Position numbers and translations under genes: made by a program
Origin: Pseudomonadota bacterium
GTDB taxonomy: Bacteria; Pseudomonadota; Gammaproteobacteria; Burkholderiales; Rhodocyclaceae
Assembly (NCBI GenBank): GCA_008501585.1
Contig: QQUN01000055.1
Coordinates: 1 to 64,000 of the forward strand
Length of the DNA: 64,000 nt
Reading direction: 5' to 3'
The notes under the pieces: generated by a model
Databases searched by the model: none
What the model saw: the letters and a program-made list of their open reading frames with translations, nothing else
What the model was told of the DNA's origin: nothing
Part shown: piece by piece, positions 57,580-61,867 of the stretch
Layout: every line of letters begins with the position of its first letter
Position numbering within the stretch: the stretch's first letter is position 1

Positions 57580-59376
57580 TCAGGCCGCCTCGGCGCAGCA
57601 CACCTCGGCCGGCAGCACATGGAAGTAGTCCGGCCGGCTCTTGGCCACCTTCTTTGCCGCCGCGGCCGCCGACGCAATCGCCTCGGGGTCGCGCTGGCAA
57701 TCGCGCGGGATGACCACCACGCCAACCGACAAGGACGTGATCGGAAAGAAGGCCTTGAAGCCGCGCCGGTCTTCGGCGTCGAGCCCGCCTTGGGCGCGCT
57801 CCACATCGTCGTAAAGCGACGGCGCCTTGTCGGCAAAACTGCTGATCACCGCCCGGCAACGCGCCTCCCAGTCCTCGCTCTGGAACAGCACCACGAAATC
57901 ATCGCCGCCGACATGGCCAAGGAAGTCGCAGGTCTTGTCGCACTGCGCCGAGATCGCACTGGCCGCCAGCTTGATCATCTCGTCACCGCGCCAGTAGCCG
58001 TAGCGGTCGTTATAGGGTTTGAAGTTGTTGAGGTCGAAGTACGCCGCGGCAAAATCGACCCGAGCGTCGAGCAGCCGGCGGATATGCGCGGTGATCGGCA
58101 GGTTGCCGGGCAGACAGGTCAGCGGATTGGCCAGGCGCGCCGCCTCGATACGCCGCTCGGTCACCGCCCGCACCAGGCCGTCGCCGGTAGCCAGCCCGGC
58201 GTAGCGCCCGCCATCGGTGATGATGAAGCCCTCGCTCAGATAGCCCTGGTTCTCGCCCATCAGGATGCTCACCAGCGAATCGATGGTGCTCGAACGATCC
58301 ACCCGCAGGGGCTCCGCATTCATGAACAGGGTGCATGATCGCCGGCCAAACAAATCGGCATGAAACGGTCGCGCCAGCTGGTCGATAAACACCCGGCGGT
58401 GAATCAGGCCGATCGGCGTCTCGCCCTCGACCACCGCCACGGCATGCAAGGCCGGATGCGCTGCGAACAGGCGCAGCACACTCTGGCAGGTCTGTGCCGC
58501 GGTGACGGTGGGCGCAGCAATGCACAAGGCATCGACGGTCAGCAAGGGGTCGGCATGTTGCGGCGCGCTGGGCAGCACCGCCAGCTTTGACGAGCGCAGC
58601 ACCGTCATCACCGCCTCGTCCAGCACGCGCGGCGGCTCGGCCTGCGGCCGGGCGAGGAAAAATCCCTGTGCGAAGCGGCAGCCCAGATCGCGCACCACCG
58701 CCAGTTCCTCCGCCGTCTCGATGCCTTCGACCACCAACGGCGTACCGAAGGCCTTGGCCAGCCCCATCACCGTGCGCAACACCTCCAGCTTCCGGCTGTC
58801 CCGGTGCACCGCGTGCACAAAGTAGCGGTCGATCTTGACCACTTCGGGGTTGAGCTGCGACCACAGGCGCAGGCTGGAGCGCCCGTCGCCGAAATCATCA
58901 ATCGCCAGCTGCGGCCCCTCCGCACGCAGCGTCGCCACCGCCGCCTCCAGCGCGGCGATATCCTCGACCCGCTCATGCTCGGTCAGCTCAAACACCAGGC
59001 GCCCCGGCGCCACACCCACCTCCCGGGCCAACTGGAGAACATGCCCGCCGGCGCCCACGGCAATCCGCTGCAGGGTCGGTGCGCTGACATTGAGAAACAG
59101 CTTGCCGCCCAGCCGCTGCCGCGCAAACGCCTCGATCGCCAGTTCGCAACACCGTTGCTCGAATATGGCGGTCATGCCGGCCTGGCGGGCAGCGTGCAGC
59201 AGGGCGTCGGGGGTCGCCAGGGCAGAGCCTTCCGGCCCTCTGACCAAGGCCTCGTATCCATGGATTTCACCGCCCTTGAGGCTAGCGATCGGCTGAAAGA
59301 CAAAACGCAGCCCCTCACCTTCGATCAGAGGCTGGATCCGCGTTGCATGGATAGGGTTGAAACGGGCCGAATTCAT
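57580..59376 (-). CDS. EAL-CBS-GGDEF domain protein
   Basis: YEALVRGPEG, IDDFGDGRSSLRLWSQLNPEVVKIDRYF; CBS-like middle region; GGDDF in the GGDEF position. Confidence 0.9.
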   Translation of the reverse strand: MNSARFNPIHATRIQPLIEGEGLRFVFQPIASLKGGEIHGYEALVRGPEGSALATPDALLHAARQAGMTAIFEQRCCELAIEAFARQRLGGKLFLNVSAPTLQRIAVGAGGHVLQLAREVGVAPGRLVFELTEHERVEDIAALEAAVATLRAEGPQLAIDDFGDGRSSLRLWSQLNPEVVKIDRYFVHAVHRDSRKLEVLRTVMGLAKAFGTPLVVEGIETAEELAVVRDLGCRFAQGFFLARPQAEPPRVLDEAVMTVLRSSKLAVLPSAPQHADPLLTVDALCIAAPTVTAAQTCQSVLRLFAAHPALHAVAVVEGETPIGLIHRRVFIDQLARPFHADLFGRRSCTLFMNAEPLRVDRSSTIDSLVSILMGENQGYLSEGFIITDGGRYAGLATGDGLVRAVTERRIEAARLANPLTCLPGNLPITAHIRRLLDARVDFAAAYFDLNNFKPYNDRYGYWRGDEMIKLAASAISAQCDKTCDFLGHVGGDDFVVLFQSEDWEARCRAVISSFADKAPSLYDDVERAQGGLDAEDRRGFKAFFPITSLSVGVVVIPRDCQRDPEAIASAAAAAKKVAKSRPDYFHVLPAEVCCAEAA

Positions 59377-59543
59377 GACGCTCCTTGTGCGCTGCACCTA
59401 AGACTTTCGCCCGAATGATCGTCAAACTCACCGCCGCCTTGAATGAAGATTTCGTGACAGCCTCGGCGCCCGCGGCTCAAGGAAACCACTGTCCGCACCG
59501 TTGGTCATAGAGAAGCGGCAACGCCGCAGCCGGGAGGAGGCAC

Positions 59544-59843
59544 ATGTTCATTGCTGTCAGCCGATTCGTGATCGCCAACGGAATGGAAGAGGCCGTGCGC
59601 GAGGCCTTCATCCGACGCCCGCATCAGGTCGACGACGCCCCCGGCTTCCAGCGCATGGAGGTGCTCCGCCCGATCGCCCAGCCCGCCGAGTTCTGGCTCA
59701 TGACCTGGTGGGACGACGAAGCCGCGTTTGACGCCTGGCACCGCAGCCACGCCTTCCGCGACGCGCATCGGGGCATGCCGCCCGGCCTGCGGCTCAAACC
59801 CGGGGAGAACCACATCACGCGCCTGGAGCGTGTGGCGGACTGA
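59544..59843 (+). CDS. Antibiotic biosynthesis monooxygenase-family protein
   Basis: 99 aa; MFIAVSRFVIANGMEEAVREAFIRRPHQVDDAPGFQRMEVLRP...FWLMTWWDDEAAFDAWHRSHAFRDAH. Confidence 0.87.
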   Translation: MFIAVSRFVIANGMEEAVREAFIRRPHQVDDAPGFQRMEVLRPIAQPAEFWLMTWWDDEAAFDAWHRSHAFRDAHRGMPPGLRLKPGENHITRLERVAD

Positions 59844-60919
59844 TGCCAGCCATGACGCCCGTCGCGCCGCTCGACGCCGAGCAACTGAACGCCTTCGCCG
59901 CCCTGCGGGAAGCGGCGGTCGCCCACGCGCTCAAGGCCAGCGAAGCCGCCCACCCCGAGGTGTTCGCCCGCTTCGGCGCCCGCGGCCGGGCGGCCTGCGC
60001 CGACGATCTCGCCTATCACCTGGATTTTCTCGCTCCGGCACTGGAGAGCGGTCAGCCCGACGCCTTTCTCCACTATCTGGCCTGGCTCGCCCAGGTGCTG
60101 CGCAGCCGGGGCGTGCCGACCGCCTCGCTCCCCGACTCACTGCGCCACCTCGACGACTTCTATCGTCGCACGCTGCCGGCGAGCATTGCCGACACCATCA
60201 GCCAGATACTCACCGCCGGCCTGGCCCACCTCGCCAGCGACGCCGAGCCCCCCGCCTACGACCACCCCGGCCCCGCCCCATGGGAGGAGACCGACCCCTT
60301 CCGTGATGCCATTCTCAAGGGCGAACGGCGGACCGCTCAGCGCTGCTTCGACGACGCCCTGAACCGCAGCGCCACCCTGATCGGCAGCGAGGTCCATGTC
60401 ATTCAGCCCGCCTTGTACGGTATCGGTCGCGCCTGGCAGGAAAACCGTGTCACCGTCGCGCAGGAACACCTGGCCACCGCCATGTCCCATTCGCTGATGG
60501 CCCGCGCCTTCGGCCTTGTCTTGCCCGCCGACGACAACGGCGGTCGGGCGATCTTTGCCTGCATGACCGGCAATCACCATGACCTCGGCCTGCGCATGGT
60601 CTCCGACGCCTTCGAAATGGATGGCTGGCAGACCCAGTTCCTCGGAGGCAACACGCCGCTGCCCGCCCTGCTGAGCCAATGCACCGCGTATGCCCCGCAT
60701 GTGCTGTGCCTGTCCGCCTCGCTGCCGCAGCACCTTCGCATGCTCAAAGAGACCCTCGCCGCCCTGCGCCGGCAGCTCGGCGACGCCAGCCCCCGGGTGG
60801 TGGTCGGCGGGCTGGTGTTCAACCACTTCCCGGCGCTGGCCAACACACTGGACGCCCAGTGGCTCGGCCCCACCGCCGAAGACGCCGCGATCGGCGCGCG
60901 CCAGTTGCTGCCCCGCTAA
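59843..60919 (+). CDS. Cobalamin-binding-domain sensor protein (CarH-like sensory half, no MerR DNA-binding domain)
   Basis: WQENRVTVAQEH (W-x9-EH), GNHHDLG (NxHxxG, cf. D/ExHxxG), LGGNTPLPALLSQ, VVVGGLVF; start overlaps preceding stop (TGATG). Confidence 0.82.
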   Translation: MPAMTPVAPLDAEQLNAFAALREAAVAHALKASEAAHPEVFARFGARGRAACADDLAYHLDFLAPALESGQPDAFLHYLAWLAQVLRSRGVPTASLPDSLRHLDDFYRRTLPASIADTISQILTAGLAHLASDAEPPAYDHPGPAPWEETDPFRDAILKGERRTAQRCFDDALNRSATLIGSEVHVIQPALYGIGRAWQENRVTVAQEHLATAMSHSLMARAFGLVLPADDNGGRAIFACMTGNHHDLGLRMVSDAFEMDGWQTQFLGGNTPLPALLSQCTAYAPHVLCLSASLPQHLRMLKETLAALRRQLGDASPRVVVGGLVFNHFPALANTLDAQWLGPTAEDAAIGARQLLPR

Positions 60920-60922
60920 GCC

Positions 60923-61867
60923 ATGTCGCTGCCACCGCTCCCCGACGCCCTGGAGACGCTCGAATCGCTGGTCGTCGCCGAATTCGACGCTCACATGACG
61001 CTGCGCCACGGCAACGCCGGCCTGCGCCGCCTGCTCAGCGATCAGGAGACCGGCGCATGGCAGTTGTTTGCCGAACCCACGCTCGACCGCTTCACCCTGC
61101 CGGCCACGGGCACCTGCATCTGCTTCGAAGGCCTGATCACCGTCAACGGCCCCGGCGACCGCATGAGTTCGCTGCGCGGGCGCATCGAAGCCGACGCGCA
61201 TCGCCTGCGGGTGATTGCCGGCTACGACCTCGACGACATCCTGAGCGCCACCGACACCCTGATGGAGCTGAACGCCGCGCTGGTGGCCACCCAGCGTGAG
61301 CTGGCCCGGACCAACCACAAGCTGACCCGCAGCGAGGCGACCGTCCGGCGCCTGTCGCTCACCGACCCGCTCACCGGCGTCGCCAATCGCCGGGCGCTCG
61401 ACACCCACACCGTCGAAACCCTCGCCCGCTGCGACGAGACCGACACCCCGGTGTGGCTGATCCTCGTCGACATCGACCACTTCAAGCAGGTCAACGACCG
61501 CTGGGGCCATGACGCCGGCGACATGGCCCTCACCGCCGTCGCCACCGCCTTGCACAACCACTGCCGCGACGGCGACTTCGTCGCACGCTTTGGCGGCGAA
61601 GAGTTCGTCATTCTCGCCCCCGCCCTCACCCGCGAGGCGGTGGCGACCTACGCCGAACGGCTGCGCAAGCTGGTGGCAGCGCTCGAACAGCCCCCGCTCG
61701 GCCGCATCACTGCCAGCTTCGGCGTCGCCCGCCGCCGACCGGGCGACACCGGCCGGGCCCTCTTTGCCCGCGCCGACGCTGCACTCTATCGGGCCAAGGC
61801 CAAGGGCAGAAACTGCGTGGCCTTTGCCGACGACACGGACCTGGCCACGACCACCCCCCCGGCCTGA
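60923..61867 (+). CDS. Diguanylate cyclase
   Basis: LTDPLTGVANRRALD, RDGD I-site then FVARFGGEEF; 3 nt after the B12-binding gene. Confidence 0.93.
   Translation: MSLPPLPDALETLESLVVAEFDAHMTLRHGNAGLRRLLSDQETGAWQLFAEPTLDRFTLPATGTCICFEGLITVNGPGDRMSSLRGRIEADAHRLRVIAGYDLDDILSATDTLMELNAALVATQRELARTNHKLTRSEATVRRLSLTDPLTGVANRRALDTHTVETLARCDETDTPVWLILVDIDHFKQVNDRWGHDAGDMALTAVATALHNHCRDGDFVARFGGEEFVILAPALTREAVATYAERLRKLVAALEQPPLGRITASFGVARRRPGDTGRALFARADAALYRAKAKGRNCVAFADDTDLATTTPPA

Follow-up and report, generated by a model that had tools for sequence, protein, structure and literature searches.

Three co-directional open reading frames lie nearly overlapping on the + strand of the window, by which we mean the whole 64,000-nucleotide stretch that was analyzed. 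They encode, in order, a small ABM-fold protein, a cobalamin-binding protein (hereafter the sensor), and a diguanylate cyclase. The ABM stop codon and the sensor ATG overlap by one base in a TGATG junction, and a gap of three bases separates the sensor from the cyclase, which bears out the tight packing described in the initial annotation. The features are as follows, in window coordinates.

59533..59540, + strand: likely ribosome-binding site of the ABM gene, GGAGGAGG (direct reading of the sequence)
59544..59843, + strand: ABM-fold protein, 99 aa, IsdG/HmuQ-like (Pfam ABM, HmuQ model, PDB profile matches)
59559-59561, 59736-59738, and 59766-59768, + strand: ABM triad positions Ser6, Trp65, and His75 (IsdG alignment)
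59843..60919, + strand: photocobilin-like sensor, 358 aa, N-terminal globin followed by C-terminal cobalamin domain
59864..60244, + strand: sensor phycobiliprotein-like (photoglobin) domain of the bilin-binding type, residues 8-134 (PDB search, profile matches, alignment)
60005-60007 and 60083-60085, + strand: sensor Asp55 and Trp81 (aligned to SasPcob Asp270 and Trp296)
60290..60907, + strand: sensor CarH-type cobalamin domain, four-helix cap and Rossmann fold (Pfam B12-binding_2 and B12-binding; fold match to 8j2w/8j2x)
60425-60436, 60464-60469, 60569-60589, and 60644-60658, + strand: cobalamin-domain motifs GxxW, EH, GNHHDLG (axial His246), and GxxxP
60923..61867, + strand: diguanylate cyclase, 314 aa (Pfam GGDEF, 2.8e-43)
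60923..61363, + strand: cyclase PAS-like N-terminal domain and coiled coil (profile against kinases, AlphaFold, nearest PDB folds)
61565-61576 and 61592-61606, + strand: cyclase RxxD I-site and GGEEF motif (read from the sequence)

A divergent gene for an EAL-CBS-GGDEF protein (GGDDF; 57580-59397, − strand) has its upstream region in common with the operon; the nearest congeners (L002, L003, and L008) have this gene in the same place, and L004 does not.

Domain content and ligand residues of the sensor

In a PDB sequence search, the photocobilins 8j2w and 8j2x are the top matches of the sensor and 8j2y is the fourth, each over two separate stretches. Specifically, residues 186-349 resemble the photocobilin B12 domain, and residues 6-101 resemble the globin that is placed after the B12 domain in those proteins. 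When the sensor family profile is compared with the PDB, the B12 domain matches 8j2w at 7e-57, and residues 8-134 hit phycocyanin, allophycocyanin, and smURFP, a protein that binds biliverdin. A Pfam Phycobilisome match is also found in 21 of 82 sensor homologs. The initial annotation had left about 170 N-terminal residues without a function, and this is where it needs correction: residues 8-134 form a phycobiliprotein-like globin. The AlphaFold2 model of the sensor (pLDDT 95.4, pTM 0.90) has six helices ahead of the B12 domain, and its B12 part superposes on SasPcob (8j2w/8j2x) at 1.8-1.9 Å over 202 columns with 30% identity (Foldseek). The Foldseek matches cover this part only, the globin being matched by sequence, because the aligner is sequential and the domain order is reversed.

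With both photocobilin domains matched in reversed order, the sensor is, as judged from sequence, a photocobilin/photoglobin homolog of the group with a C-terminal B12 domain. Photocobilin-type proteins have been grouped by whether this domain is N- or C-terminal (PMC10979010), and the globin-first order is therefore not new. Photoglobin-B12 proteins (Schneider et al. 2022, as cited in later papers) are likewise globin-B12 fusions and have been proposed as a light-sensing bundle.

The light signature of B12-binding domains consists of GxxW, EH, GxxH, and GxxxP (PMC11796333), and the sensor carries it in full (G195xxW198, E208H209, G243xxH246, and G268xxxP272). The W-x9-EH motif and the GNHHDLG motif with its axial His are present as initially quoted (W198-x9-E208H209 and N244-x-H246-xx-G249). 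Since W198, E208, H209, and H246 are invariant among the 82 aligned homologs, these motifs are not due to chance. An AdoCbl domain with Wx9EH and an axial His is also found in CarH repressors, but these differ in having a DNA-binding domain and in lacking a cyclase output. Pfam finds no MerR-type DNA-binding domain in the sensor, as had been noted initially, and the CarH model matches the cobalamin domain only, scoring 74 bits where 400 are required. CarH membership is ruled out by the absence of the DNA-binding domain.

In SasPcob, biliverdin is contacted by Asp270 and Trp296 (PMC10979010). These residues align to Asp55 and Trp81 of the sensor (SasPcob chain positions 264 and 290, with a constant offset of 6 inferred), which are kept in 75/82 and 81/82 homologs, respectively. 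The Asp55 column holds a His in AbPcob, in agreement with PMC10979010.

The cyclase partner and conservation of the gene trio

The GGEEF and RxxD I-site motifs reported initially are both intact in the cyclase, and the enzyme looks active on this basis. Among 33 adjacent cyclases, GGEEF is present in 33 and RxxD in 32. The N-terminus of the window cyclase has no Pfam match, although PAS_4 is matched in 8 of 53 homologs, and a sequence search of the PDB with this region returned no match. Its AlphaFold model (pLDDT 92.6) has the strand and helix order of a PAS domain followed by a coiled coil; the nearest PDB folds are PAS/LOV domains, but none is found at E ≤ 0.001. The profile of this region matches the N-termini of the kinases described below, down to 5e-55.

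Neighborhoods were compared in the best 80 of 465 related loci, using an ABM profile built with length limits. The pairing anticipated by the initial annotation is conserved across genomes in this sample: in 54/80 loci (including two fragments recovered by translated search) an ABM gene immediately precedes the sensor in the same orientation, and the gene directly downstream encodes a diguanylate cyclase in 31 loci and a histidine kinase in 33, i.e. one or the other is adjacent in 64/80. The remaining loci comprise 22 without an ABM gene, 3 with too little sequence, and 1 with the ABM gene on the opposite strand. Two further loci are fused, with the cyclase joined to the upstream ABM gene in one and the kinase joined to the sensor in the other. 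On the sensor tree, the output changes between cyclase and kinase at least 8 times, and a similar N-terminal region is common to the cyclases and to 20 of the 33 kinases in the same best 80 of 465 loci. Across the operon relatives, the receiver domain is retained while the output enzyme is exchanged. More tentatively, the PAS-like domain could be the docking site for the sensor. In the congener G006 (L126, 410-2063), the operon has decayed, with a stop in the ABM gene, the middle of the sensor missing, and the GGEEF stretch of the cyclase lost; that all three genes are broken together fits one functional unit.

Other arrangements were seen among the loci. For example, L090 (3595-4893) encodes an ABM-linker/PAS-like-GGDEF fusion, L017 (2505-3485) an ABM-PAS fusion with a CxxC...CPxC tail, and L094 (4977-7577) a photocobilin-PAS-histidine kinase fusion. 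A third type of output is found in L063 (6056-6724) and again in L017 (2505-3485), where a cysteine-rich CxxC...CPxC domain ends the partner and replaces the cyclase or kinase. In Adhaeribacter (L074, L084, and L098), the sensor is followed by a partner of ~165-173 aa with a coiled-coil end and without a recognized output domain. Three MAGs labeled Bordetella parapertussis or Klebsiella pneumoniae (L039, L040, and L044) carry betaproteobacterial-type operons, and their names are probably wrong.

The ABM protein and bilin supply

The small upstream protein matches Pfam ABM at 5.5e-18 and the HmuQ model at 1e-14, under the cut-off of that model, and its profile matches TT1380, HmoB, IsdI, IsdG, and MhuD in the PDB. 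Sequence comparison thus points to IsdG/HmuQ-type heme degraders as its closest characterized relatives. The IsdG family is defined by an N-W-H triad, and replacement of the Asn by Ala abolishes activity (PMC5557675); the product of the HmuQ-type enzyme of Bradyrhizobium is biliverdin (PMC6449446). The ABM protein resembles IsdG, MhuD, and HmuQ (PMC5557675, PMC6449446) in its fold and in the triad Trp and His, which are kept in nearly all members of the photocobilin-linked clade. In contrast to the N-W-H of ordinary IsdG-like proteins, the triad of this clade is S-W-H with the Ser invariant, and the clade has a photoreceptor-like operon context and a C-terminal PKGLKL motif of its own, which those proteins lack. 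The Ser at the catalytic Asn position rules out assignment as an IsdG heme oxygenase; heme or bilin chemistry could still be possible with a Ser triad.

The specificity of this companion was assessed in 470 genomes (101 relatives and 369 class-level genomes, with the window genome in both). With the clade delimited at 100 bits, its members occur in nine of the 470, all scoring at least 116 bits and found only beside photocobilin genes; the next matches are a truncated fragment (74 bits) and, at no more than 73 bits, IsdG-like proteins of the ordinary kind. Of the sensor's companions, the ABM gene is the most specific, a point that the initial operon reading had missed, along with the PAS-like docking or relay domain that the cyclase shares with kinases in this operon position. 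In the relative G062 (L109, 1504-1797), an ABM gene of the photocobilin clade survives only as a truncated piece beside a hybrid kinase, likely a remnant of a lost operon.

The window genome has the AdoCbl-forming BtuR, while searches of it for HO-1, HugZ-type, and phytochrome genes found none. HO-1 is carried by 19 of 79 other host genomes. By ABM status, it is present in 9/55 genomes with the ABM gene and 9/21 without it (Fisher P = 0.03, kinship ignored). Asp55 is present in 54/54 ABM-linked sensors and in 19/25 others (P = 6e-4, kinship ignored). Neither association is significant after tree correction, and we keep both only as hints, there being too few independent events on the tree.

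We tentatively assign the ABM protein a role in bilin supply or delivery, which may well be correct though we stop short of favoring it. The narrower proposal, that it is a dedicated Ser-triad heme degrader making bilin for the adjacent photocobilin in hosts without a canonical heme oxygenase, is possible but rather doubtful. It is quite conceivable, without being our expectation, that the protein is instead part of a complex with the sensor and the cyclase, in which it would act as a signaling subunit or adaptor, either by binding heme or bilin or simply by docking on the PAS-like domain. The loss of the catalytic Asn and the private PKGLKL motif would fit such an adaptor, as would the ABM-PAS-GGDEF and ABM-PAS fusions (L090 and L017), which adjoin photocobilin genes; by contrast, the conserved triad Trp and His, the heme-degrading nature of the nearest characterized relatives, and the lack of any other recognized heme oxygenase in the window genome, among the families tried, count against it. 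Because the adaptor reading concerns the ABM protein alone and can hold together with everything else in the explanation given below, our confidences in the different readings do not sum to one.

A putative split photocobilin signaling system

Taken as a whole, the operon is probably a split photocobilin signaling system, with a light sensor, a separate cyclase, and an ABM protein on the tetrapyrrole side. The domain content, the ligand residues, and the conserved and specific gene linkage are computed here; we infer that the sensor responds to light, binds a bilin, and regulates the cyclase in trans, as well as the direction of this regulation and the role of the ABM protein. The C-terminal domain of the sensor would bind AdoCbl, and its N-terminal globin would probably hold a bilin, e.g. 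biliverdin. Green light, or red light via the bilin, would break the Co-C bond and change the assembly of the sensor, which would then contact the PAS-like N-terminal domain of the separate cyclase and alter its output of c-di-GMP, a biofilm signal. The steps from AdoCbl photolysis to altered assembly and direct contact with the cyclase are suggested by published relatives. Stand-alone photocobilins affect a cyclase in trans, and AbDPcob is >10-fold more active in light (PMC10979010); light most likely increases cyclase activity here, as it does in AbDPcob. The ABM protein, within this scheme, would most likely cleave heme to the bilin, or bind and deliver it.

The sensor shares with the stand-alone SasPcob and with AbDPcob, which is a fusion to a diguanylate cyclase, a CarH-type AdoCbl domain, a globin of the bilin-binding type, and the light signature; with SasPcob it has the biliverdin-contact Asp and Trp in common, and with AbDPcob the cyclase output (PMC10979010). 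Unlike either, it has the globin before the B12 domain, a separate cyclase with a PAS-like domain, and a dedicated ABM companion gene. BBAG-2 globins (PMC10151467) are also of the bilin-binding kind and are associated with a B12 protein and with genes for heme degradation; here, however, globin and B12 domain are fused, and a nearby IsdG-like protein takes the place of HO-1. The initial proposal of a B12-based light sensor acting on the cyclase by protein contact stands as the best reading, given the conserved pairing, but it was incomplete: the photocobilin identity and the globin were missed, as was the fact that light control of a diguanylate cyclase by a photocobilin is already published (PMC10979010).

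Several observations count against the split photocobilin explanation. The Asn-to-Ser change removes a residue needed by characterized IsdG enzymes (PMC5557675), the ABM gene is missing from about a quarter of loci in the best 80 of 465, and some other hosts have HO-1 (19/79, as above). The two associations with the ABM gene also lose significance on the tree, and the globin is matched by sequence, the Foldseek matches covering the B12 part only. It is improbable that the sensor gauges the supply of AdoCbl, or the redox/oxygen state, instead of light, with the globin a structural relic and the cyclase under B12 control. AbDPcob activity is indeed altered by AdoCbl binding alone and this protein binds biliverdin poorly (PMC10979010), and the operon is found in heterotrophs without phytochrome; however, the homologs conserve Wx9EH and GxxxP, the adenosyl-specific signature by which light-responsive domains are recognized, and a relic would not need the biliverdin-contact residues that nearly all homologs keep. 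Chance adjacency of three genes with separate functions is very improbable. In its favor, no more than about half of the congeneric genomes sampled have the operon; against it, the gene order is kept across several phyla, with fusions, overlapping genes, and joint decay in addition.

Photocobilin action on a cyclase in trans has been reported in vitro only, using isolated domains and a single sensor that was non-cognate (PMC10979010). In this operon, nature provides cognate pairs that have a common PAS-like receiver and swappable outputs, which makes photocobilin signaling to a separate protein directly testable. Compact split cyclases and kinases responsive to green or red light would also be useful optogenetic parts. 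The most valuable point of the operon is the ABM protein. The operon also raises the question of where bacteria without heme oxygenase obtain a bilin. If the Ser-triad proposal is true, these proteins would make bilins for photoreceptors by a new route, perhaps yielding a bilin other than biliverdin, and that route would belong to a cassette whose output can be exchanged, from light to cyclase or from light to kinase. The trio recurs across many bacteria and could reveal how light sensors act on separate partners and how they get their pigment.
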